The translations under genes were made by a program, and so were the position numbers. The notes under the pieces are model-generated. The model saw nothing but the letters and a program-made list of their open reading frames with translations. It did not search any database and was not told where the DNA came from. Below are positions 9,758 to 47,954 of a stretch of DNA of 64,000 nucleotides, piece by piece (within the stretch, counting starts at the first letter, position 1; every line of letters begins with the position of its first letter). The DNA is from Symbiodinium natans (lineage: Eukaryota > Sar > Dinophyceae > Suessiales > Symbiodiniaceae): NCBI GenBank assembly GCA_905221605.1, contig CAJNDS010000102.1:706501-770500 (forward strand). The letters are read 5' to 3'.

Positions 9758-9893
9758 AACCCTAAACCCTAAACCCTAAACCCTAAACCCTAAGCCCTAA
9801 GCCCTAAGCCCTAAACCCTAAGCCCAAAGCCCTAAGCCCTAAGCCCTAAACCCGAAACCCTAAACCCTAAACCTTTAACTCTAAACCCTAAGG
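9758..9893 (+). repeat. Interstitial telomere-type repeat (CCCTAAA)n with CCCTAAG variants
   Basis: About 18 tandem 7-mers, mostly CCCTAAA and CCCTAAG with a few single-base variants. TTTAGGG is the plant and dinoflagellate-type telomere unit. The array sits far from any window end and just upstream of the poly-Thr gene array. Confidence 0.9.
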
Positions 9894-23147: not shown

Positions 23148-24814
23148 GTCCCGCCGCCGCGGAGGTGTACAAGGTGATCCTGAAAGAGACTGGGGACGCG
23201 ATGCCGCTCCAGCCTGTTTGTTCTTTTGGGACCAATCCTGAACCCCCAAACCCGAAACCCGAAAACCCCCAAAACCCCTAAACCTTAAACTCTAAACCCC
23301 TAAACCCCTAAATCCCTAAATCCCGAACCCTTAACCCCTAAACCCCTACACACCTAAACCCCTAACCCTAAACCCCTAAACCCCTAAACCCCTAAACCCC
23401 TAAACCCCTAAACCCCTAAACCCTGAACCCTCAAGACCCTTCCCCCCCCCCCCCTCCCCCAAGCCACGCCCAGCTTTGAGTCCCGGAGGCTTTCGGGCTA
23501 CCCAAGGCAGATACTATATCCCCCCTTGGGGATTTTTTTTCATTTTCTTTATGTATAACCCAAGAGAGGATATTAAAAAATAGTATTTTTGTTAAGGCTC
23601 TGAGGGGAGTATAGGATAAGGGGGTTTCCGGACGTAGGGGTACCTTATTGGGGTCCTTCTGTTAAGCGAAGCCTACTATTTGCGGGACTCTATGAGGGGT
23701 GCCCAATTTTCGTAAACCCCCATATTCCTATAGATAGATGGGATAAGGTCTATGGCATCCCAAAGAAGAGACCCAGGGATCCAAGGTCCCGAACTGGCGC
23801 CCGAAGCCCTGTACCGTTCCTCAGTCTATTCTCCCTAGGGTTTAGGGTTTAATTTTGGGTGTAGGGTTTAGGGTAACCCTTCCTCCAACCCCAACATCTG
23901 TTCCTCAAACCCCACCCTAAAGCGCAGCCCGAGACCGCCTGCTATGGCCTTTTCCGCCTTCCCACGCGACAGGTCTGCCCGAGTACGGGAAGTCTTTCAG
24001 AGGCTGCAGACCCATTTCTCCCAGCAATATGCGTGGTGGGACGGTTTGATTGACCAGTTGATGAGCAGCCGGCTGAGTGAAGTGAATGGTGAGCATCCTT
24101 AACGAGCAACAGGGTGGGTTCCTGGCAGGTTTGATTCCGATGGCGGGGGCTACTTGGACAAGGACGAGCTTTCGCGTGTCTTCCGCACGTGGCTCGGCGA
24201 CTTGAGCCCGCCTTTTGGAGGACACAGAGCTCGAGACCAAAAACTATTATATGTATACAGATATGTGGCATGGACCTTTAGGGTCTATTTGGCACTCCCC
24301 TTTTGTTTGCTATTTAAACGGTTCAATTCACACATACAATTTGTAGGGTTTAGGTTTAAGGCAAAATCTATGGCTTAGGGCCAGTTCGGTTCACGGCTAA
24401 GGGCTCCCATGTTTGGCATCACATCTCTTATTTTCCTAGGGCTTCGCCACCTACCATCTCATTCTAGGGTGTAAGTTTTCCGTTCAACCCTCGTTTAAGG
24501 GTGTGGTGTTTGCCATAGATATACTACTTTAAAAAATCAATAATAACATAAATAACTGCTGGAAATGACAAACCCTGAGCGCCCTCAAGTGTGTTGCTTT
24601 AAATAAGACGATAACATACTTCTTTGTCAATACTGTTGTTTTAGCCGCTTTTCGCCTTTTCCTATTAGTATTGTTTTTGCTTACCTGATATAACACGAAG
24701 GAAGGGAAAAAAGGGAAGACACCACTTCATCTCGATGTGTTTATCTCTTCTTTCCTTCCCTCTCAAGCTTTTTTTCAATCTCTCTCTCTCTCTCTCTCTC
24801 TCTTCCTCGCTCTG

Positions 24815-24892
<78 letters not shown>

Positions 24893-25302
24893 TCTGCCAT
24901 CTCTTGCTCTCTCATCCCTCCCCTCCCCTCTTTCCTCCCTCCCCTTCTTTCCAAAACTGTCTGCGGACAATAAGGAATAACAGAGAACAAAAAGGAAAAG
25001 ATAGGATGAAAGCAGATGGTGGGGACAGGAAGGGAGAACTCCTCTTTCGCTCGGCTCACACGTTTTCTCTTCCCTTGCCTTCATCCTCTGCTCTTCTCCC
25101 TTTTCTCTTCATAAGAAGAAAGGACAAATGAAAGGAAACGAGAGCTCAGGGAAAGCAAGACGCCCTCGCTCTCATCATCTGCCCTTCCTCGACTGCATTG
25201 TCTCCATCTCTCTCCCTCTCACCCTCCCTCCCTCTCTACTTCCGCAAATTCCCTTTGGCCAGGGAAAGAAAGACTGAAAGTAAGAGAGAAAGTAAGAGAG
25301 AA

Positions 25303-25378
<76 letters not shown>

Positions 25379-28300
25379 GGGGGATGAAAAGAAGAAGAGA
25401 TGAAGAAAGCAGCAGGGCTTTGTCCCCGCCTCTGTTCATTCCTTGTTCTTCTCTCCTGTCTCATTGGTGATCAGTGATGAACCAAGAAGATCTTTCCGTT
25501 CTTTCATTTTCTTTTTTCTGGTGGAAAGCTAAGAAGCAGAAGGAGAGGAAGGAACGTGGAGAAATAGAAAGAGAAGCAAGAACGAAAAGAACAATACGCA
25601 GAAATGACGGAGAGAAAAGGAGAACTGCAAGCCCAGCGGAAGAAGAAAATAGAAAGAGAGAGAGAGAGAGAGAGAGAGAAGAGATGAAGATAAGATAAGG
25701 GTGAAAAGGTGAAAAAAAATGAAAACAACAATCTAAAAGCAAAGTAGCTAAACAAAACCTTCTGGCTCACCCCTTCAACTCTAAACCACCCTAAACCCTC
25801 GGTATATTGAGATATAACAGCACAGTTCCCGTAGCATGCTATATCAGAAAACCATTTCTTCCTACGAGATGTACAACCGCCTAAAACACGGTGACGAAAA
25901 ATATAACAGTGCAATGAGGCGTCTGAAAAAACTTTCTGGCTTGCCCCTTCAACTCTAAACCACTAAACCCTCGCTATGTCAAGGCTTAACAGCACAGTTC
26001 CCGTAGCATGCTATGTCATTTCTTCTTACGAGACGCACAACATAAACCAAGGTTTCGTACACTTTTTGTAGTCAGGATGTGATACCCTGTTGCTTTGGAC
26101 GAGTATTATGTAAGACCTTATGCGCCTGTGAGTCTTGCGGATACTTGGAAAATAAGCATTACCCGTGACAAATGGTAACCATGACGGGAGATTTGTGGGA
26201 ACCATTAAGAATGAAAAGCAAGATACTTGCGAGCAACTACTTGCAGCCTGCTGGTCTCAGGAAATCGCGAAAGGATATTTGTCCCTGGGGCTTACAGTAA
26301 ATGATTTTCCGCATTGCCCTATGCGCTCGAATACTTCTTAGTCTTATGGTTCGTTCTCCGCTATCGGTATTTGTTTGATATGCCATGAATTTATCCTATA
26401 TACACAGATGAAGTGGGCACCTATTCTAAGTACTTTCTCTTTGCGGCTTGCTGACTGAGAGATGTTTTCAGGTGTGAAAAGGCCTCACGCGCCAACATCT
26501 GCTTCTGGACAACAAAGTAGAGATAATATGTTTTGCGAAGGGGGGGCCAAGACAGTGCTTAATCGGCCCTGGGTTTGACGATTGAAGATTGAAGACACCG
26601 GGGAACTCTCCCCGGAGCATCTTCAATCCAAGACCCATGCCGATTAAGCACTTCGGCCCAGGGTTAAAAGCCCAGGATTGAAGATGCTCCGGGGAAAGTC
26701 CCCGGGCATCTTCAATCTTCAATGTTCAAACGCAGGGCCGATTAAGCACTCCACCTGCTGCTTAATCGGCCCTTGGATTGAAGGTTGAAGATTGAATATG
26801 CCATGGAACTCTCCCCGGAGTATCTTCAACCCCAGACCCCTGCCGATTAAGCACTTCATCTGCCTAATCGGCCCAGGGTTGAGAATCTATGATTGAAGGT
26901 GCTCCGGAAGAGTTCCCGGGCATCTTCAATCTTCAAACCCAGGGCCAATTAAGCAGGTGGAGCGCTCAATCGGCCTTGAGGCCGAAGGATCAGGATTGAA
27001 GATGCTCGGGGAGAGTTCCTCGGCATCTTCAATCTTTAATCTTCAGACCCAGGGCCGATTAAGCAGCTGGAGCGCTTACTCGGCCCTGGGGTCCAGTAGT
27101 TCAATATTTCATATGCTCTGCTAAAGTTTTCCGTAGCATTTTCAAGCCCCCCTCCCAAAGACCCATCCGTATTTTGGTGTTTGGGATACCGAAGCAATGT
27201 AAGCCAAAGCTAAATGAAAGGGAAGAAGTCCCTTTTTCCTCTGCCTATCTTCTTCCTCCCACTCCTCTCTTCCTCTCCTATTCTTCTCTTAGCGTAGAGC
27301 ATGGAATGATGAGAGGGAAAGGGTAAAAGCGGATGAGAAAAGTGACAGAGAGGGCAGGGCGAAATCTTCATTTCCTTACCTTCTTCGTCCCTCTCACCTC
27401 TCCTTCTGATCGTTCTCTTGCTTTCTCATTTGAGAAGGATGTGGAAAGGAGGGAAGGGCAGGGCATGGAACCATCCCAATGTTGCTGTTCTTAGGGGCCT
27501 CGGGAGTTGGCAGGGGCTCCCGGGAGCCTCCCGAACGTAGGGGCCTTTTAGAGGCTAGAGCTTCCAGTAGCATCCAACCCTCCCTCCCAGCTCGACATGA
27601 GACCTTGCCTCTCCTCCCCCACCTCTTCGTTTCCTCGTAGAAAGAGACAGATCATAGTCCGCCATCTTATCATGCCCTCATTCTCCTTGCTTAAGCTTGC
27701 CCTTTCTATCCCCCTACTTAATGGCAAAAGGAACAGAAGAGGAAAGGCTCATGGGCTAGACACGAGAAAAGCGAGAGCGGAGAAGGGAGGAGAACGAACA
27801 TGGACAAAGAAAGGGAGGAGAGCTAGTGGGAGGATAGAAAGATAGAGAGGAGAAATGAAGGACAAAGACCGTGGAAGAAAGGAGTGAGCGATGCTCGGGA
27901 CATATGTGTAAGGGGTGAGGAAAAGGAACAGTGGATAACAAAAACAAGTGTCCTGCTTTCCCTCTTCTCTTTCCTTCTTGATCTTCCCTGACCCCTTTTT
28001 GTTCTCCAAGTGCTCTTTTCACGATCGCTTCCCTCTTCTTCATTGTTTCTGTTTCCTTCACCCTGTTCCCCTATCTGTCGCTCTTCCACTGTCTTCCTTC
28101 TTCCTCTTCTCCCTAATTGTTGTCTCCTTCTCTTTGCTCCTCTATCTGTCTCCATCTCTCTCACTCCGGTGCCCCCCGGTGTTTTCTGTTCATTGCTCAT
28201 CCTTTCTGACTGTACGAGGCAGACCCTGTACAAACGATGGGTCCTGTTCTGGACATGGTCCCGCACTGCCTCTTTCCACACACTCCAAACCCCTCTGAGC

Positions 28301-29792
28301 CTCCCCCAAGAGTTTCAGGCGGCCTTCAGAGAGCGTCTCCCAGGGGCCTCCAAGAGCCCCCATATTGCTAAGAAGAAAAACCAGAGAAAAGACCACAGAG
28401 ACATGTTGAGAAGTGTGGAAGGTAGTTACAAGGAGCAGGAGAAGTCTCCTTCATTCTCCTTGCTTGGCCTTGCCCTTCTTCTACCCCCCCCCCGTGGCCG
28501 GCTTAAATAGGGTTTATTTGGAAGCTGGGAGTCGTGTTTTGGTGTGGTAGATAGAAAGGAAAGGGCATGAGAAAGTAGCGAGAGGAGCTCTTCAATTCAC
28601 TTCCTTATCTCCTATGCTCTTTTCCTTCTTTATTCTTTATTGCAACAGGAGAAGACAGGAAAAGGGCTTCCATTCCCCTCATCTTCCTTTCTTGTGTTTT
28701 TGTCATTTAGAGGGGAACAGGAGAAGAGAGCGAGAGAGGAGGAGAGAGGAGCGATACAGGGAATCCAATTTCAATGGAACAGCAAAGAAAAGAATAGAAG
28801 AGAGATGAATAGAGAAGAGGGAGAGACAAAACGAGGCGCTGAGAAGATGGCACTCTTCTTTATCTATCCTATCTCCCTTATCTCTCCCTTCCCTCTTTCT
28901 TTTCGAAATAAGAACAACTAAAGAGGAAGAATTTATGAAAAGGAGACGAGTAAGGAAAAGAGCAGAAGAGATAGGCCGAGAAGAGGGATGTGATGAAGTA
29001 CGGCAAGGTCCACGTGCAAGGAGTCACCCTCTGCTTTACCTTCCACTGCTTCATCATACAAGTTCCTTTCTTGTGTTTTATCAGTTAAACGGAGACAGAA
29101 GGAGAGAAGGGAAAGGGAAGTGAGAGAGGAGAGACAACAAGGAGGCCATTTTAATTTTCTGGAAGGGTACTGAACAGAAGAGAGGAGACAAGAAACAAGG
29201 AGACGGAGGAACACAACAAGGCGCAAAGAAGATGGCACTCTTCTTTATCTATCATCTCTACCTTCCTTGTCTCTCCCTTTTCCCTCTTATTAAAAAGGAC
29301 AAGACCTCTTCGCAGATAGGTGCCCTCTCTCCTCTTCAGGAAGCCCCCTTGCCCTTATTTTGCTTGCTTTCTGAAACGACAAGGTAAACAACACATAGAA
29401 AGAGAGGAAATGGAATGAACCAATAGGCAGTGGAGTTCTTCAATTTCTTTACCTATCTCTTTTCATCTTTTTTCTTTTTTCATTCAACAAGGAAAAGAAG
29501 CTTCCTTTTGTGTGTTTTTGAGATTAAAAGGAGAACAAGAGAAGAGAAGGGAGAGAGAAAGGAGAGAGGAGAGATCAAAAGGAATGCAACTCTAAAAGGA
29601 AGAGCAATGAAAAGAATGGAAGACAAATGAGGACAGGCGAGGGAAATGCAAAAATCAGGCAAGGAGAAAATGGTGCTCGTTTTCATCTTTCCTCTGTTTC
29701 TTATTTTTCTCTTCTCTTGTTCATTTCCGTTAGAAAAACACAAAAGGAAGAACAATGAACATGTAAGCAAACCCAGCTGATGCTCATGATTG

Positions 29793-29852
<60 letters not shown>

Positions 29853-32800
29853 CTCTCTCTCCCTCCCCATATATGGGCGATGGAACGGGTGTCCTTTTTG
29901 GGCCGTTTTCTGCATCTTCAAGCGAGGAAAAGGGACACGCCGCAAGAAAACACTTAGGGTGTCCCTTTTGTTCGTTTGAAGACACAGAAAGCGATTAAAA
30001 GGGACGTCCATTTTGGATTGGCAGGCAACCCAGCTGATGCTCATCATTTCTCTCTCTTTCCCTATATATGGGCGATGGAACGGGTGTCCTTTTTGATCGT
30101 TTTCTGCATCTTCAAGCGAGGAAAAGGGACACCCCGCAAGAAAGCACTTAGGGTGTCCCTTTTGCTCGTTTGAAGACACAGCAAGCGATTAAAAGGGACG
30201 CCCATTTTGGATTGGCGGATGATGCGGGATGATGGGGGATGACGCGGGATGAGAGAGATGATGGGACATGATAAGGGGGCTGACTGTCTCATCCCCCATC
30301 ATCCCCATCACCCCCCATCATCCCCCATCATCCCTTTCACCCCTCCCGAAATGATGGGAGATGATGGGGGATGATTGGGGGATGATGGGGCATGATGGGG
30401 GATGAGAGAAATGATGGGAGATGGTGGGAGATAATGCGGGGTGATGTGGGATGGGCAATGAGCGGGTATATCTGAAATCCGGGAAATGACAAATCCCGGG
30501 TTTTGATGTTCAAGGGTTTTAGTTATTTTTCTGAATCTTAACTTTTTATGAACTCCTTACACAATCAAATCCGGGATTTGATTTTTGTTAAGGGTTTCAA
30601 GGATATTAGCCTAAACTCTAAACCCTAAACCCTAAACCCTAAACCGAACCCCGGGATTTAGTTCTTTAAGGATTTCAAGGATTTTTTGTGCATTTCAAAT
30701 TTCATGAGACCCTTGAACAATCAAATCCCCGATTTAATTTTCAAGGATTTCGAGGATTTCATAAAATTTAAATACCGGACCTCCTGCAAAAGCAAAACCT
30801 CCCCTCCCCAGCCAGAGTACGGGAAGACCCCGCGGATTTTAAAATTTATGAAATCCTTGAAATCCTTGAAAAATTAAATCCCGGGATTTGATTTTTCAAG
30901 GATTTCATCAAATTTAAAATGCCCCAAAAATCCTTGAAATCCTTAAAAAATCAAATCTCGGGATTTAATATTTTAAGGATTTCAAGGATTTTTTGGGCAT
31001 TTTAAATTTGATGAAATCCTTGAAAAATCAAATCCCGGGATTTAAATTTTCAAGGATTTCAAGGATTTCATAAATTTTAAAATCCGCGTGGTCTTCCCGT
31101 ACTCTGGGTGGGAAGGGGAGGTTTTGCTTTTGCAGGAGGCCCGGTATTTAAATTTTATGAAATCCTTGAAATCCTTGAAAAATTAAATCCCGGGATTTGA
31201 TTTTTCAAGGATTTCATAAAATTTAAAATGCTCAAAACATCCTTGAAATCCTTAAAAGATTAAATCCCGGGATTTGATTTTTTAAGGATTTCAAGGAGTT
31301 TTTGGGCATTTTAAATTTGATGAAATCCTTGAAAAATCAAATCCCGGGATTTGATTTTTCAAGGATTTCAAGGATTTCATAAAATTTAAATACCGGAGCT
31401 CCTGCAAAAGCAAAACCTCCCCTTCCCACCCAGAGTACGGGAAGACCACGCGGATTTTAAAATTTATGAAATCCTTGAAATCCTTGAAAAATTAAATCCC
31501 GGGATTTGATTTTTCAAGGATTTCATCAAATTTAAAATGCACAAAAAACCCTTGAAATCCTGAAAAAATCAAATCCCGGGATTTAATATTTTAAGGATTT
31601 CAAGGATTTTTGGGGCATTTTAAATTTGATGAAATCCTTGACAAATCAAATCCCGGGATTTGATTTTTCAAGGATTTCAAGGATTTCATAAAATTTAAAT
31701 ACCGGAGCTCCTCCTGCAAAAGCAAACCCCCCCCTCCCCACTCAGAGTACGGGAAGACCACGCGGATTTTAAAATTTATGAAATCCTTGAAATCCTTGAA
31801 AAATTAAATCCCGGGATTTGATTTTTCAAGGATTTCATCAAATTTAAAATGCCCAAAAACTCCTTGAAATCCTTAAAAAATCAAATCCCGGGATTTAATC
31901 TTTTAAGGATTTCAAGGATTTTTGGGGCATTTTAAATTTCATGAAATCCTTGAAAAATCAAATCCCGGGATTTGATTTTTCAAGGATTTCAAGGATTTCA
32001 TAAAATTTAAATACCGGGCCTCCTGCAAAAGCAAAACCTCCCCTTCCCACCCAGAGTACGGGAAGACCACGCGGATTTTAAAATTTATGAAATCCTTGAA
32101 ATCCTTGAAAAATTAAATCCCGGGATTTGATTTTTCAAGGATTTCATCAAATTTAAAATGCCCAAAAAATCCTTGAAATCCTTAAAAAATCAAATCTCGG
32201 GATTTAATATTTTAAGGATTTCAAGGATTTTTGGGCATTTTAAATTTCATGAAATCCTTGAAAAATCAAATCCCGGGATTTGATTTTTCAAGGATTTCAA
32301 GGATTTCATAAAATTTAAATACCGGCCTCCTGCAAAAGCAAACCTCCCCTTCCCACCCAGAGTACGGGAAGACCACGCGGATTTTAAAATTTATGAAATC
32401 CTTGAAATCCTTGAAAAATTAAATCCCGGGATTTGATTTTTCAAGGATTTCATCAAATTTAGAATGCCCCAAAAATCCTTGAAATCCTTAAAAAATCAAA
32501 TCTCGGGATTTAATATTTTAAGGATTTCAAGGATTTTTTGGGCATTTTAAATTTGATGAAATCCTTGAAAAATCAAATCCCGGGATTTAATTTTTCAAGG
32601 ATTTCAAGGATTTCATAAATTTTAAAATCCGCGTGGTCTTCCCGTACTCTGGGTGGGAAGGGGAGGTTTTGCTTTTGCAGGAGGCCCGGTATTTAAATTT
32701 TATGAAATCCTTGAAATCCTTGAAAAATTAAATCCCGGGATTTGATTTTTCAAGGATTTCATAAAATTTAAAATGCTCAAAACATCCTTGAAATCCTTAA

Positions 32801-34018
32801 AAGATTAAATCCCGGGATTTGATTTTTTCAGGATTTCAAGGAGTTTTTGGGCATTTTAAATTTGATGAAATCCTTGAAAAATCAAATCCCGGGATTTGAT
32901 TTTTCAAGGATTTCAAGGATTTCATAAAATTGAAATACCGGAGCTCCTGCAAAAGCAAACCCCCCCCCCCTCCCCACTCAGAGTACGGGAAGACCACGCG
33001 GATTTTAAAATTTATGAAATCCTTGAAATCCTTGAAAAACTAAATCCCGGGATTTGATTTTTCAAGGATTTCTTAAAATTTAAAATGCCCAAAACATCCT
33101 TGAAATCCTTAAAAGATTAAATCCCGGGATTTGATTTTTTAAGGATTTCAAGGATTTTTTGGGCATTTTAAATTTCATGAAATCCTTGAAAAATCAAATC
33201 TAGGGATTTCCCGGCGGCAAAAGAGGCGTGCCAAATAGACCCTAAAGGTCCTACGTACATACAGATATATATATATATATGTGTATGTATGTATACTGAG
33301 AAGAGTAATGCCATTTTATTGAGTATCGTTGTTATTGTTTCAACCTGAAGCCACTCCGGCAGCTTCGGGCCTTGTTGGGGGGAGAGACACTTCGCCAGGC
33401 TGAACTCGGACTTCACCTTCAAGGACATCGAGGCCTTGTGCAGAGATCTGGACCGAGGCCCAGCTTGCCATGGGTTTAGGGTTTAGGGTTTAGGGTTCAA
33501 TTGGCTTGGGGGGTTCCTCGGCGAGGTCTGAAGTATGGTCCCGCACATGGAACTCCAAAGACTCCTGACTCTTCTGCTTTTCAGATCCCCTCCCTCCCCC
33601 CCAATCCTTACGGCAGGAGCCGAGACCACATGCCGTTTGTGCCATTGTGCCAACGTTTCTGTCTCCTCGCCAAGGAACAAAGGGGGTACATGACCTCTGG
33701 GGGTAACAAAACCGTAACGCAGGCGGAGACGGCAAGGTTTCACACAAGGAGCTGCGCCGGGGCAACTGCCGAGGGGACGAGTGGTTGCCTTGGGATCACC
33801 TTTCCGTGGGCGTCTTTCAATCTTGGGGTTTTGAGGGACTTGGGTTCCAGAGGCGGAAACTGTTCGGCCCCCAAGCTGTGAGGGCACGGTGCACGTTCTC
33901 CAAGCCCTACACCCCTAAAACCCCAAGCCTAAACAGCCTCAAAACCCTAAAATCCCACAGTGTCCTGTGTTCAAAGGAGTTCCTCCACTGGCTGAAAAAG
34001 GGAACCGAGCTGGCACAG
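23148..34018 (+). CDS. EF-hand/p25-alpha gene, exons for EF-hand pair 2 (contains the 9-kb intron insertion)
   Basis: Exon 23,148-23,202 encodes a linker helix (AAAEVYKVILKETGDA). Exons 23,973-24,002 and 24,129-24,191 join as VREVFQRF + DSDGGGYLDKDELSRVFR, giving EF-hand 3 with loop DSDGGGYLDKDE. The next exon is 33,399-33,457 (SDFTFKDIEALCRDLDRG), the first half of EF-hand 4; its join to 24,191 restores Trp (TG+G) in phase. The second half (SKEFLHWLKKGTELAQ) lies at about 33,966-34,018, but the few loop residues between (positions 4-6) were not found, so a microexon or loop decay remains possible. Donors at 23,202, 24,002, 24,191, 33,457 and 34,018 are all GC. An alternative ATG in frame lies at 23,944. 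Confidence 0.75.
23236..23431 (+). repeat. Intronic CCCTAAA/CCCCTAAA array
   Basis: A long run of CCCTAAA-type and CCCCTAAA-type units within the intron 23,203-23,972. A smaller TTTAGGG cluster in the opposite orientation lies at 23,838-23,872 in the same intron. Confidence 0.85.
24774..24893. repeat. (CT)n microsatellite
   Basis: Nearly pure CT over about 115 bases. A matching GA tract lies at 25,309-25,375 and a further CT tract at 29,797-29,862, all inside the TIR element. Confidence 0.95.
25755..26045. repeat. Imperfect tandem duplication, period about 173 bp
   Basis: The segment beginning at 25,757 (CTTCTGGCTCACCCCTTCAA) recurs at 25,930 with substitutions. Both copies contain AACAGCACAGTTCCCGTAGC and CTACGAGATG or TTACGAGACG. 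Confidence 0.75.
26556..27095. repeat. Tandem array of five ~100-bp palindromic (hairpin) units
   Basis: Each unit starts with GCTTAATCGGCCC and ends with its complement GGGCCGATTAAGC, and has an inner hairpin around CTCCGGGGA/TCCCCGG flanked by GATTGAAGATG and CATCTTCAATC. Units lie at about 26,556-26,652, 26,655-26,748, 26,758-26,851, 26,860-26,957 and 26,963-27,069, followed by a partial copy. The layout resembles a nested MITE or a fold-back satellite. Confidence 0.8.
27200..29770. repeat. Purine/pyrimidine-asymmetric tract with degenerate ~390-bp units
   Basis: The plus strand alternates between pyrimidine-rich (CTTCTTCCTC) and purine-rich (GAGAGGAGAGA) blocks. The phrase AAGATGGCACTCTTCTTTAT occurs at about 28,843 and 29,229, and related TTCAATT, TGTGTTTTT and AGGGGAACAGGAG words recur with the same spacing. 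Ser/Leu- and Arg/Glu-rich frames here are compositional and were not called as genes. Confidence 0.6.
29866..30220. repeat. Two ~194-bp direct repeat copies
   Basis: The block from CCATATATGGGCGATGGAAC to CATTTTGGATTGGC occurs at 29,868-30,023 and again at 30,062-30,217. Inside each, AAAGGGACACGCCG and AGGGTGTCCCTTTT form an inverted pair. Confidence 0.8.
30217..30470. repeat. GATGATGGGG minisatellite with an inverted block
   Basis: Units GATGATGGGGGAT repeat in plus orientation at 30,217-30,280, appear inverted as CATCATCCCCCATC at 30,285-30,345, and return to plus orientation to 30,455, so the tract can fold back on itself. Confidence 0.8.
30475..33210. repeat. ~310-bp satellite built of nested palindromes centred on AAATCCCGGGATTT
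   Basis: About nine units. Each contains several AAATCCCGGGATTT palindromes within larger inverted CCTTGAAATCCTTGAAAA/TTTTCAAGGATTTCAAGG arms, and a unique marker (GAGTACGGGAAGACCACG plus GCAAAAGCAAAACC). Markers read plus at about 30,815, 31,434, 31,745, 32,056, 32,360 and 32,980, but inverted (CTTCCCGTACTCTGGGTGG) at about 31,096 and 32,638, so some units are flipped. It ends directly at the right TIR of the host element. Confidence 0.85.
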
Positions 34019-36616: not shown

Positions 36617-37473
36617 GTGCGCAACCTGCCGGCTCGGTGGGGGGTTCTGGGGGCGACTCCCTGCGAAGCAGTGGGTGACTAGGGATGGTTTGAGTTTCCG
36701 AAATTCCTCCAATTCCTGCCCTAAGCCCGAAGCCCTAAACCCTAAACCCTAAACCCTAAACCCTCGATGCTAGCGACTTGGGATGGTTTGAGTCTCCAGG
36801 GTTCCTCGGTGCTTGAGCTGTGGGCGCTTCCACAGGCTGTCTTTTGGCTGCTTCGTAAGCCCAAAACCCCCGAGATGGTGACTCCCTAAGTCGCTCCTAA
36901 GCGCCGAAACCCACATGGGGATTTACGATATGAGTGGTGCCATATTGCGGTCCTCATCATGAGGGAACCCTACTACTTTTGGGAATTCCTTATTCGGGGG
37001 CCCCTTAGGTTCGTAAACGCCCAAAATGCCCCCCCAAACCTGCTCGGAAGCCTCCAGGCCATTCTAGCGCCCAGCGACTCAGACGGCCTTGAGGCGCAGA
37101 TTGTTTTTGTATCATTACTAGGCTTATTGCTCTTATGAATATTATAACAAAAGTTATGGTATTGCTCTTATGAATATTATAACTCTTATCATCATTATTA
37201 GAGACATTGTTCGAGTGTTTCCAGGGCCTCAGGGCCCCTTTCCTCTCAGAGGGGCTCTGAGGTGTCCATGTTCCCAGCCCCCTTAGGGGCCGAAACCCAG
37301 CCCTCGGCCCTCTGGAGCCCACAAGTTCAAGGTTCCTACGCCTTTTGTGGCTTTTTGACATCTGAGGGCTTTCTGTGGTGCAACGGTCATGTGTCTGGTT
37401 TTCGGGGTTACAAGGGCTAAGGGTTCAAAGCCCCCAACCGTCCAAGCCCTTTTAAGGGACCTCCGCCATCCAG

Positions 37474-42094: not shown

Positions 42095-42098
42095 GTCC

Positions 42099-42179
<81 letters not shown>

Positions 42180-42286
42180 ACCCTAAACCCTAAACCCTAA
42201 ACCCTAAACCCTAAACCCTAAAACCTACACCCTGAACCCTGAACCCTGAACCCTAAACCCTAAACCCTAAACCCTAAACCCTCAAC
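42095..42286 (+). repeat. CCCTCAA array passing into CCCTAAA array
   Basis: About twelve CCCTCAA units (42,099-42,182), then CCCTAAA units, a few CCCTGAA units and CCCTAAA again. Further TTTAGGG or CCCTAAA runs lie at 42,625-42,672 and 42,797-42,857. The block-wise change of unit suggests local amplification of single-base variants. Confidence 0.9.
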
Positions 42287-43385
42287 AACATGCTCCTTTA
42301 AAAACGCCACCCCCTCGACTCCGGTGGGTTCCCGGGCCGCGCCGCCCGCGATAATGTTAGCTGGGTAGTCTTAGGGGGCTCGTGTAGGGCTGCGAAGCAT
42401 CAGGGCACGCAATGGAGGATGTCCAGCGAAACCCGAAAGGTCTCGGCAGAACCCAACCCAACGTCGAGGAGGGCGCTTTAGGCTTCGGAGTCTTGGGAGG
42501 AGTCCGGGTTGATTCTGATGAGTGTCGGGCTTCTTTTCGTTCGGACTGTCTATTGTCAGACCCTTTCGGGCCCCCATTTCCTTTTTTGGAGTCTTCAATC
42601 AAGGTTTGGGGTAACTTTGGGTTAACCCTAAACCCTGAACCCTGAACCCTCAACCCTAAACCCTAAACCCTAGGTTGGCACCTTGGGGGGTTTTGGTGTA
42701 TTGCGAGGCCGGCAGGTGGTACGCCGGTGCTGCGGCTTTAGAAAACTTGGGGGGCTGCCCGGACGCCCTGTAGGCTCTGAGCTTCCCGCAGCTTAGGGTT
42801 TAGGGCTTAGGGTCTTTTAGGGTTTAGGGTTTAGGGTTTAGGGTTTAGGGTTTAGGGTTGCTCCAGTTTAGGGCCCTGTCGCTCGCAGCCCAAGATTAGC
42901 AAGGTTGCCGCAAGTGACTTCAACTTGCCGTCATGTGCATGTTGATCAGCACGGCACCGCGAAGGAAATGAGCAGTCTCCGGCGTCTTTTTCTTTTTTTT
43001 TATTTTTTTGTGTGTGTGTGTGTGTGTTTTTCTTTTTTAAGGGGAGGGGCGGGGTAGAGTTGAGGGCTTCACCGTGCTTTCTGGGTGGCCTAGGGTTGAG
43101 AGCTTGTTGCAGTTCTGAGGCAGAGTCGGAGATTCAACTTTCCATGGCATTAAGTCCTGCAAACCCCAGAAGACCCCAAGAAGTAACCAGGGCTTCGGGC
43201 TCTGAAAGCTTTGAAAGCTGACGGTGGTGTGCATACGGCATATGGAGCATATCCGGCTTTTGCAGAACTTCTGTCATACCTCTTTCCCAACAAAAGTTTG
43301 GGGTTTCCTTTCCACCAGAGCTGTGCCGAAACGTTTGAGAGGTCTAGCATATTTCCTGTACCCGTAAAGCGAATGATCCCTGGCC

Positions 43386-45520: not shown

Positions 45521-45754
45521 CCATGTCTGGGTCCACGTTTTGCAGCTTCCTCGTGCAGGGCAAGCTTCGCATACCCCTGTTTATTTCCGCTGGACAGGGA
45601 CACTGGCAATTGTAGGAAAACGTACGTACTGGCTTGGGCGGCCAATTTGCTGTTTCAGCAATATCAGGTTGCAAAACTGCGGAGTCGATCATCCCACTTC
45701 GTTAGCGGGCGAAGCAAAAATTTGCTTGCCCGTTACTATCTGGACACCATTTGT

Positions 45755-47650
45755 TCACGCAATAATACGTTTATAAACTAGTGCATGAAACGTATTATAT
45801 TGCGTGACGAAAAGAAGAGAGAAAAGGGCCTATTAAAATAATATTAAATTTAAGCGTGCATTCTTTACCTTAAATTTAATACTATTTTAATGAGGCACTA
45901 AGTGAATAAGTGAGTTTACGAGCGCATTCACGAAGACCACACCCTGAGACCCATCCCAACCTTACAGACTCAGAAATCTACCCTAGAAACCGTACCATTC
46001 ATCTCTCTCACTCTTGTTCCACAGCCTTGTTCACCCATCCCCCGTTCCCCTTTCCTCGGGCACTTATTCACTTAGTACACTATAATATTATTATTGCAAG
46101 TTTACGCGCGAATAATAATATTGTAGTGCACGCGTGAATAAAGTGAGCAAAAGACCCCCAAATATTATAGTTAAAGGGGCACATAATACGTTAATACGCT
46201 TATTGCCCCTTTAATATAATATTTAGGTCTTTTGGGGTACTCTGGGGCTGGAACTTCCTTTGGGACCCTAACCTCTATCTCTAGCTCCTGTTAACCCACA
46301 GAATCCGTCTATGAGTCCAGGGTCTTATGAACCAGCCCTAGAAACCGTACCATCATGAAGGGGTCTTTGTGGTTGATCTGGGGCTGACCGACAAATAGGA
46401 TCTCTCGGGACACTAACTCTCTATCACCAGGATACACCTTACTAACCGGCTTAGAGACCAGTCCAACCGCAGCACCCATCACACCTTGAGACCCTGTTAA
46501 CGCCTGGTCTGGATAAGCCTTAGAGTTAGTACTAACCACTTCACCTTTATTAGTATTATAACGCGGGCTTTCTGTATTCGCGCGATAAACGCAGTGCATG
46601 CGTGCGCCCCGTTAAAAGCCCGCGATAATAGAAAGAGTGTAGAGAACATTATTAATGCGGTTATAAGTGAAGTGAATGAAATGAATGTAACGCATGAACC
46701 GCATTAATAAAGTGAACGAAACGTGAAGAGAACAATGTGAACAAGTGAACGAAAACATGGAGTGAACGCGTGAACATGTGAACGAAACCACGAAGAGAAT
46801 GTAATGAGCGCAGTAATAATATAATTGCAAGGTAACGCGCGAATTATATTATTAATGCGTGAATGAAGAGAACGAAGTCATGAACGCACAATTAACACGC
46901 CCGAAACAAAAGAATTATATGGGCGTGAGAATATTAATAGTGTGCGTTCGTTTGTGCGGCTTTTTCTTTTCTTTTCTTATTGCCGCACGCATGATATTAA
47001 TACGAAGAGAATAAGTGAATTAGAGAACGAAGTGAACGTAATGAACGCATGAACGAAGTACAGTAACAACAATATGATTAAGGGCTCCAAGTTCCAGGAT
47101 GATACGGTTGTTGTGGGGCGTTCACTTCGTTCACTTGAAATGCAAATTAACGAAGGAGTGAAGGGAGTGAGTGATCAATTGAACGAAGTAAGAACGAAAC
47201 CAACCGCCGAAGCAGCCGAAGTACTAACCGGGTGAGTGCGTACGTCCCTGTCATCTGTTGCCCGTGGATGGACCTTTAGGACGCAGTATTAAGGGGTTCT
47301 CTGCGTCATGAGCCCGTGATCCTGTCCAACATTCACCTCTTTAAACGTACTATCCTGGGTGGTGCAGCAGTTTCCTGTCTTTTGGTTCTCACCGCCGGGC
47401 ACATGACCACACAAATCGCCCATCCAACCTCGACCAATCGTTCACGCGTTCTCTTCACATTATTATTGAATTGTAATGAAAGCACGAATTCAATAATAAG
47501 GTGAGAACGGAACGAATACAGGATTTAATAGTATTATGGTGTGAACAGAGTGAACACGCGCATATAATTCACTTCTTTCCATTGCATTCTTTTCCTTCAC
47601 TCCTTTAATACCGTGAAGCGAATGCAATTACAAGTAAACGAAGTGAATAA
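45755..47650. repeat. AT-rich hairpin island
   Basis: At least eight strong stem-loops follow one another: 45,759-45,804; 45,832-45,891 (arms ATTAAAATAATATTAAATT); 46,078-46,128; 46,149-46,233; 46,651-46,708 (ATTAATGCGGTT/AACCGCATTAAT); 46,814-46,854 (TAATAATATAATT); 46,931-47,001; 47,461-47,498 (TATTATTGAATT/AATTCAATAATA). Loops are GC-containing (GCGCG, GCACG, GCATG). Between stems the words GTGAACGAA, GTGAATGAA and GCGTGAA recur. No convincing ORF, rRNA or tRNA was recognised. Base use differs sharply from both flanks. Confidence 0.75.
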
Positions 47651-47954
47651 ATGAACGAGTTTGCGCGTGAATTGCATGAACGAAACAAAACCAGCTATTT
47701 ACTTTCATAATCTTGTTTGCGCTTGTAATTTAATTGTTTTGACAACAGCCGCGGCCCAATTGGGAATTCGCAACGTTTGGAAAGCGAAGTTGTACTGACG
47801 TCGTGCAAGCTGGCGAGACCAGGTGTCCATAGGTTGTCTGTGTAACGCTGCAGTCAATCTGTGTTTCATCCGGCTCATAGAGCAAGCTGCATGCAAAACG
47901 TTTTTTGCCAAGCGATGGCGTCTGTGTGGTCGCCTGCGCCATACTGCATGACAG

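Follow-up and report, generated by a model that had tools for sequence, protein, structure and literature searches.

A multi-copy family of large non-coding transposons with 10-bp target duplications in Symbiodinium natans, probably mobilized in trans by a MULE-type transposase

How does a 9-kb unit of non-coding DNA, framed by perfect inverted repeats and a short direct duplication, come to be where it is, and what moves it? The question is raised by a 64,000-nucleotide stretch of the dinoflagellate Symbiodinium natans (GenBank assembly GCA_905221605.1, contig CAJNDS010000102.1, here C102, positions 706,501 to 770,500), which is called the window below. An earlier note on this DNA had described in it an element with perfect 24-bp inverted cores, each lying inward of one of two identical 10-mers. 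The positions were confirmed: each copy of ATACAGATAT stands 7 bases outside its 24-bp core (GGACCTTTAGGGTCTATTTGGCAC), and at ≤3 mismatches the core has two matches in the window and none in 100 dinucleotide shuffles. We consider the element, with a probability of about 0.7, to be a non-autonomous class II transposon that is mobilized in trans, most likely by a transposase of the Mutator-like element (MULE) type.

The 759.4-Mb assembly (2,543 contigs) was searched for the core at ≤3 mismatches, which returned 131 + 144 matches and none in the reversed control. At the same tolerance, the left form of the end (GTGGCAT followed by the core) had 114 matches in the genome and the right form (GTACGTA followed by the core) had 92, with none in the controls. 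When 100 listed left ends (of the 114) were paired with the 92 right ends under a 35-kb limit, at least 71 convergent left-right pairs were obtained among the listed ends, and a single pair of neighbors within 35 kb was wrongly oriented. Other copies with these ends thus exist, and the window element is not isolated. The spacing of the pairs ranged from 3,241 to 29,442 bp with a median of 9,461 bp; the longest spans may be misjoins. All 71 pairs carried the core at both ends (≤3 mismatches over 31 bases), and we read both ends of 42 pairs and the interiors of 26. The outer 7-mers differ between the two ends, the left form being present in 42/42 copies and the right form in 40/42, and the inverted repeat starts with GGA in 83 of the 84 ends. 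Both 7-mers were found in all 19 copies that had been chosen by the core alone (19/19); the other 23 were chosen with the 7-mers in the search pattern, so that 7-mer conservation among these is partly a selection effect. A search for ends that retain the first 14 bases of the core and then carry an altered base gave 8 matches, four of which (C433, C1202, C1796 and C2141) resemble divergent right ends. In agreement with the earlier view that the element looks undescribed, no description of the family was found in the literature searched, which consisted mainly of open-licence papers.

An exact 10-bp direct repeat was found directly outside the 7-mers in 34 of the 42 copies; random re-pairing of the ends (2,000 shuffles) gave a mean of 3.4 duplications and a maximum of 10. 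No copy (0/42) matched at exactly 7, 9, 11 or 13 bases, and the matches at 8 bases (7 copies) and 12 bases (6 copies) were all at (AT)n sites. The length of the duplication is therefore fixed at 10 by 27 copies and is ambiguous in 7, as those 7 lie at (AT)n sites. The earlier proposal of a single insertion with terminal inverted repeats (TIRs) and a 10-bp duplication is upheld. Among the 21 distinct duplications, TA occurred at positions 2-3 or 8-9 in 20 and at both in 13, which indicates a palindromic target, (A)TANNNNTA(T). The target was ATATATATAT in seven of the 34 copies with a duplication and the telomere-like repeat AAACCCCTAA in another seven, four in one orientation and three in the opposite one; the targets other than ATATATATAT are TA-rich or telomere-like. 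The window itself contains interstitial telomere-like arrays of the CCCTAAA type (23255-23440, 9758-9891, 36719-36764, 42097-42286 and 42624-42859), which resemble the AAACCCCTAA repeat used by those seven insertions.

For four insertions, the two flanks were fused with a single 10-mer between them, and the genome was searched for the joined sequence. For the copy on C1702 (L019), two empty paralogous loci were found, C602 (100% identity) and C1258 (99%), both contiguous across the junction and holding a single GTAGGAGTAT. The other three joined insertions returned their own filled sites only. The joined sites of the window element, L023 and L024 had no contiguous match in the genome and recovered only their own halves and repeats of lower identity; in the same search, the left flank of L023 was found to be common to a copy on C1979. 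The empty site that the earlier note had envisaged is therefore available, at two loci with one 10-mer each, for a sibling copy, and no paralogous one was found for the window's own site. A sister copy on C2021 is of the window type and occupies another site; it differs from the window element by 22 substitutions in 8,655 aligned sites, with 395 gap columns. Movement has therefore been recent, and the window type is not a single chimera, since C2021 carries the same type elsewhere. A published study remarks that the DNA transposons seen in hybrid assemblies show little divergence and could be active (PMC8045281), which fits recent movement of this family. Among sibling copies, near-identical units are likewise flanked by unrelated sequence. 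A DDE-type reaction leaves traces of this kind: exact duplications, empty sites, flanks that are unrelated, and conserved ends whose outer 7-mers differ.

The interior is non-coding, as the earlier note had it. A stop-to-stop scan found no open frame of ≥180 aa inside the window element, and a Pfam scan of its 57 frames of ≥60 aa found no transposase; the few matches were weak and of low-complexity type (Atrophin-1, DUF3915, PARP, Piezo and PFF1). Rfam and tRNA scans of the window gave no match. The satellites, inverted-repeat clusters and polypurine tracts reported previously are all present. Copies of subfamily A have diverged repeats in the left part and an array of 309-bp units at the right; subfamily B, of which only C341 was read through, has a different left part and 235-bp units; and the window type joins a B-like left half to an A-like right half. 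A satellite array thus forms the right end of window-type elements, of subfamily A copies and of C341, the only subfamily B copy read through. These internal arrays are not inverted at the two ends, and the inverted repeat is the simple 24-bp core, with no tandem motif repeats.

Open frames were scanned in 23 of the 26 copies read inside (thresholds of 180, 120 and 150 aa), and the longest frame belonging to the element was 229 aa, leaving aside a nested retroelement. The latter accounts for the exceptions in C341 (L030), where frames of 1,088 and 665 aa belong to a retroelement of copia-like type (RVT_2, E = 3.5e-19) with identical 158-bp direct repeats at its ends. Pieces of the copies on C58 and C2273 seem to run into the same retroelement at the same place; those on C14, C78 and C904 do not. 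A perfect duplication surrounds the whole 19.6 kb of C341, so that composite units of such length seem able to move. Among the longest elements fetched, C341 (19.6 kb), C447 (17.7 kb) and C1402 (12.1 kb), no long frame was found besides the C341 retroelement, and Pfam detected no transposase domain in 53 of the 58 listed frames of ≥60 aa of copy L025, the matches there (Connexin, Sec62, Cylicin) being of low-complexity type. Large size and inverted ends would also suit a viral or Polinton-like integration, but no viral gene was found in the scanned frames (57 of the window element, 53 of L025), Polintons duplicate 6 bp rather than 10, and the core has no exact match in a viral contig collection, which leaves this origin scarcely credible. 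No exact match to the core was found in the prokaryote collection either.

The right array of the window element contains four perfect 50-bp palindromes, and the 50-bp sequence folds as one hairpin of -22.4 kcal/mol, compared with -6.0 in shuffles. With ≤2 mismatches allowed, the 32-bp core of the palindrome occurs at 654 genomic sites and nowhere in the control. Of 50 distinct sites listed among the 654, 37 are enclosed by paired ends, 9 sit inside a right end that has no partner and 4 inside another end; because each of these 50 falls within an element or next to one of its ends, the satellite looks element-specific. Copies C341 and C1764 are without the palindrome in this form. The satellite may offer repeated binding sites for a transposase or an anti-silencing factor, or may help the ends to pair.

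Although the earlier note could name no superfamily with confidence, the ends resemble those of Tm1/Phantom MULEs. Tm1 is a Mutator/Foldback family of root-knot nematodes with a Phantom-like transposase (PMC3169594; here and below, comparisons draw on parts of the papers cited). As in the present family, its inverted repeat is bordered on the outside by asymmetric motifs of 7 bp, and the next motif is GGA; most of its copies are non-autonomous, and one is reported to have crossover-type ends and no duplication. Its duplications are 8-10 bp long. Unlike the simple 24-bp core and 3-29-kb units found here, the Tm1 TIR itself holds tandem 14-bp repeats, and a putative autonomous Tm1 copy is known and thought to be inactive, whereas here there is a recent sister copy. 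MULE duplications span 8-11 bp (PMC5907723) and those of IS256/MuDR elements 4-10 bp (PMC10045372); our 10 bp falls within the MULE range, and TIRs are present, as in MULEs. The SaTars of guayule and rice, which are ascribed to MULEs, share the 10-bp duplications, the (TA)n targets and the non-autonomous state, but are about 0.4-1.7 kb long with mostly longer, imperfect TIRs, and their TIRs resemble those of autonomous MULEs (PMC5907723), whereas the three MULE loci that we read are without the core. MuTAnT of Medicago likewise targets (TA)n microsatellites; it differs in being mostly 200-300 bp long and in having a known putative autonomous partner (PMC4486113). By end architecture, duplication and targeting, membership of the MULEs is thus the most likely assignment for a family that behaves like one.

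In the mechanism that we propose, a transposase supplied in trans would bind the 24-bp inverted core and the distinct outer 7-mers and would make cuts staggered by 10 bp at the palindromic target (A)TANNNNTA(T), which is on offer both in (TA)n microsatellites and in the telomere-like repeat AAACCCCTAA. Gap repair would then leave the 10-bp duplication. The enzyme would most likely be of the Mutator kind, acting on sub-terminal inverted repeats as in Tm1/Phantom, and each unit would represent modular non-coding cargo. Movement was probably by cut-and-paste rather than replicative. Mobilization in trans is the simplest inference, because no transposase is seen in cis.

The genome does contain MULE-domain frames, with 8 Pfam matches, and a search with one of its MULE proteins gave 16 matches, of which 8 were at 98-100% identity and two lay in open frames of 889 aa (C1386) and 1,073 aa (C1782). 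The MULE genes on C58, C2380 and C2107 were considered as cis partners and rejected, as these loci show neither the core nor convincing inverted ends. The three MULE loci read (L075, L076 and L077, with near-identical MULE genes) carry tandem arrays of their own, of the AGGGCAGTGA type.

Several results weigh against a MULE-driven, trans-mobilized family. None of the 8 Pfam or 16 protein-search MULE matches lies between a listed pair of ends, and the core was not found around the gene at C58, C2380 or C2107, the last of which is partly N. Paired ends never enclosed a recognizable transposase, with Pfam scans covering two copies and sections of a third, and none of the copies examined proved to be autonomous; an enzyme encoded in several short exons could escape the frame and Pfam scans. 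FLYWCH, the DNA-binding domain of Phantom, gave no match, the control genomes being silent too. Tm1 duplications are mostly 9 bp (PMC3169594) and that of MuTAnT is 9 nt (PMC4486113), compared with exactly 10 here, and Tm1 is reported in the part of the paper used to have no target consensus, in contrast to the strong (A)TANNNNTA(T) preference of this family. Finally, 7 of the 34 duplications are at (AT)n sites, where their length is ambiguous, and 8 of the 42 copies have no perfect duplication.

We think it unlikely that another or undescribed DDE superfamily moves the family with a strict 10-bp stagger at (A)TANNNNTA(T), the sub-terminal likeness to MULEs being convergence. The strictness of the length (34/42 at 10, with matches at 8 and 12 only at (AT)n), the palindromic target and the position of the MULE genes outside the listed ends would all suit such an enzyme, as would the blank FLYWCH search and a search for KDZ transposases, which had no match in the genome or in the control genomes. 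Against it stand the MULE precedents, in the excerpts cited, for 7-mer-then-GGA ends and for (TA)n targeting with 10-bp duplications. Also doubtful, in our view, is an undescribed dinoflagellate system in which a new or very divergent transposase leaves duplications of strictly 10 bp at (A)TANNNNTA(T) and uses the unlike 7-mers as left and right ends, while the multi-kb non-coding cargo includes a palindromic satellite that serves as a repeated binding platform.

The eight copies without a perfect duplication also bear on whether the units could be dispersed satellites or segmental duplicates, spread by recombination rather than transposition. In C78 and C1833, the 10-bp duplications match crosswise, as though flanks had been swapped; L017, L021 and C1446 each have a single flank in common with L018, L019 and C347, respectively; and C1971 has a duplication with one mismatch. 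In L022 and C2033, neither a crosswise match nor a shared flank accounts for the missing duplication. The crosswise duplications and shared flanks point to exchange between copies or to assembly misjoins. Such flanks (C1904/C1979 being a further pair) and the large tandem arrays are what spread by recombination would lead one to expect, but the exact 10-bp duplications, the unrelated flanks around near-identical units and the confinement of all 50 listed palindrome sites (of 654) to elements or their borders argue for transposition, and the empty sites of the C1702 copy refute recombination for that insertion. As a general account of the family it is very improbable.

The earlier note had placed the insertion in an intron between two EF-hand exons. 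The EF-hand-like matches on either side are weak (left, E = 0.0045; right, E = 0.13; both under the Pfam cut-off), so that the exons are putative, and the argument is not needed for the insertion. The element may nevertheless sit in an intron of an EF-hand gene and it starts with GT, as would befit a giant introner that makes its own intron, and introners, likewise TIR elements, are known in a related alga, Symbiodinium microadriaticum (PMC9860276). The latter are short and intron-making; in the part of that study used, their duplication measures 4 bp, compared with 10 bp here, and the example given spans 115 bp. Of our 34 duplications, 14 are ATATATATAT or telomere-like repeats. We therefore regard an introner as highly improbable.

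Table 1. Features of the window element and its borders (positions in the window).
Feature	Position	Strand	Remarks
Element proper	24,265-33,258		8,994 bp; 24-bp cores at both ends, identical 10-bp direct repeats outside
EF-hand-like stretch upstream of insertion	24127..24189	+	E = 0.0045, below Pfam cut-off
Target site duplication, left copy ATACAGATAT	24255..24264	+	
Left terminal 7-mer GTGGCAT	24265..24271	+	Identical in 42/42 copies with both ends read
Left inverted repeat core GGACCTTTAGGGTCTATTTGGCAC	24272..24295	+	
Left half, block-wise kin of subfamily B copy C341	24265..28493	+	86-97% identity; polypyrimidine/polypurine tracts
Nested inverted repeat cluster	26554..27088	.	Arms ≤76 nt, 73-94% complementary
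194-bp direct repeat	29854..30216	+	1.9 copies, 93% matches
309-bp satellite array	30650..33209	.	8.3 copies; right-end module common to subfamily A copies
Perfect 50-bp satellite palindrome	31321..31370	.	Repeated at 31942-31991, 32250-32299, 32866-32915
Right inverted repeat core	33228..33251	-	Equals left core
Right terminal 7-mer GTACGTA (minus strand)	33252..33258	-	40/42 copies
Target site duplication, right copy ATACAGATAT	33259..33268	+	

The large genomes of dinoflagellates are thought to have been shaped by mobile DNA, and the literature searched held little on active DNA transposons in these organisms. The family described here combines sharply bounded termini with a duplication of strict length and a palindromic target rule, and offers paralogous empty sites as well as copies that are nearly identical; it also ties an element-associated palindromic satellite and the use of telomere-like targets to transposition. 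With its ends, duplication, target rule and empty sites defined, its movement can be traced in related strains and its transposase can be sought by end sequence, which gives a new handle on genome reshaping.

Two further observations concern the window and genome at large. An AT-rich island at 45750-47660 of the window (about 43-45% GC in two kilobase bins) has dense inverted repeats, often with AGTGAACG, and may be another repeat element. A 21-base dinoflagellate spliced-leader word had 205 exact matches in the genome and none in the control.

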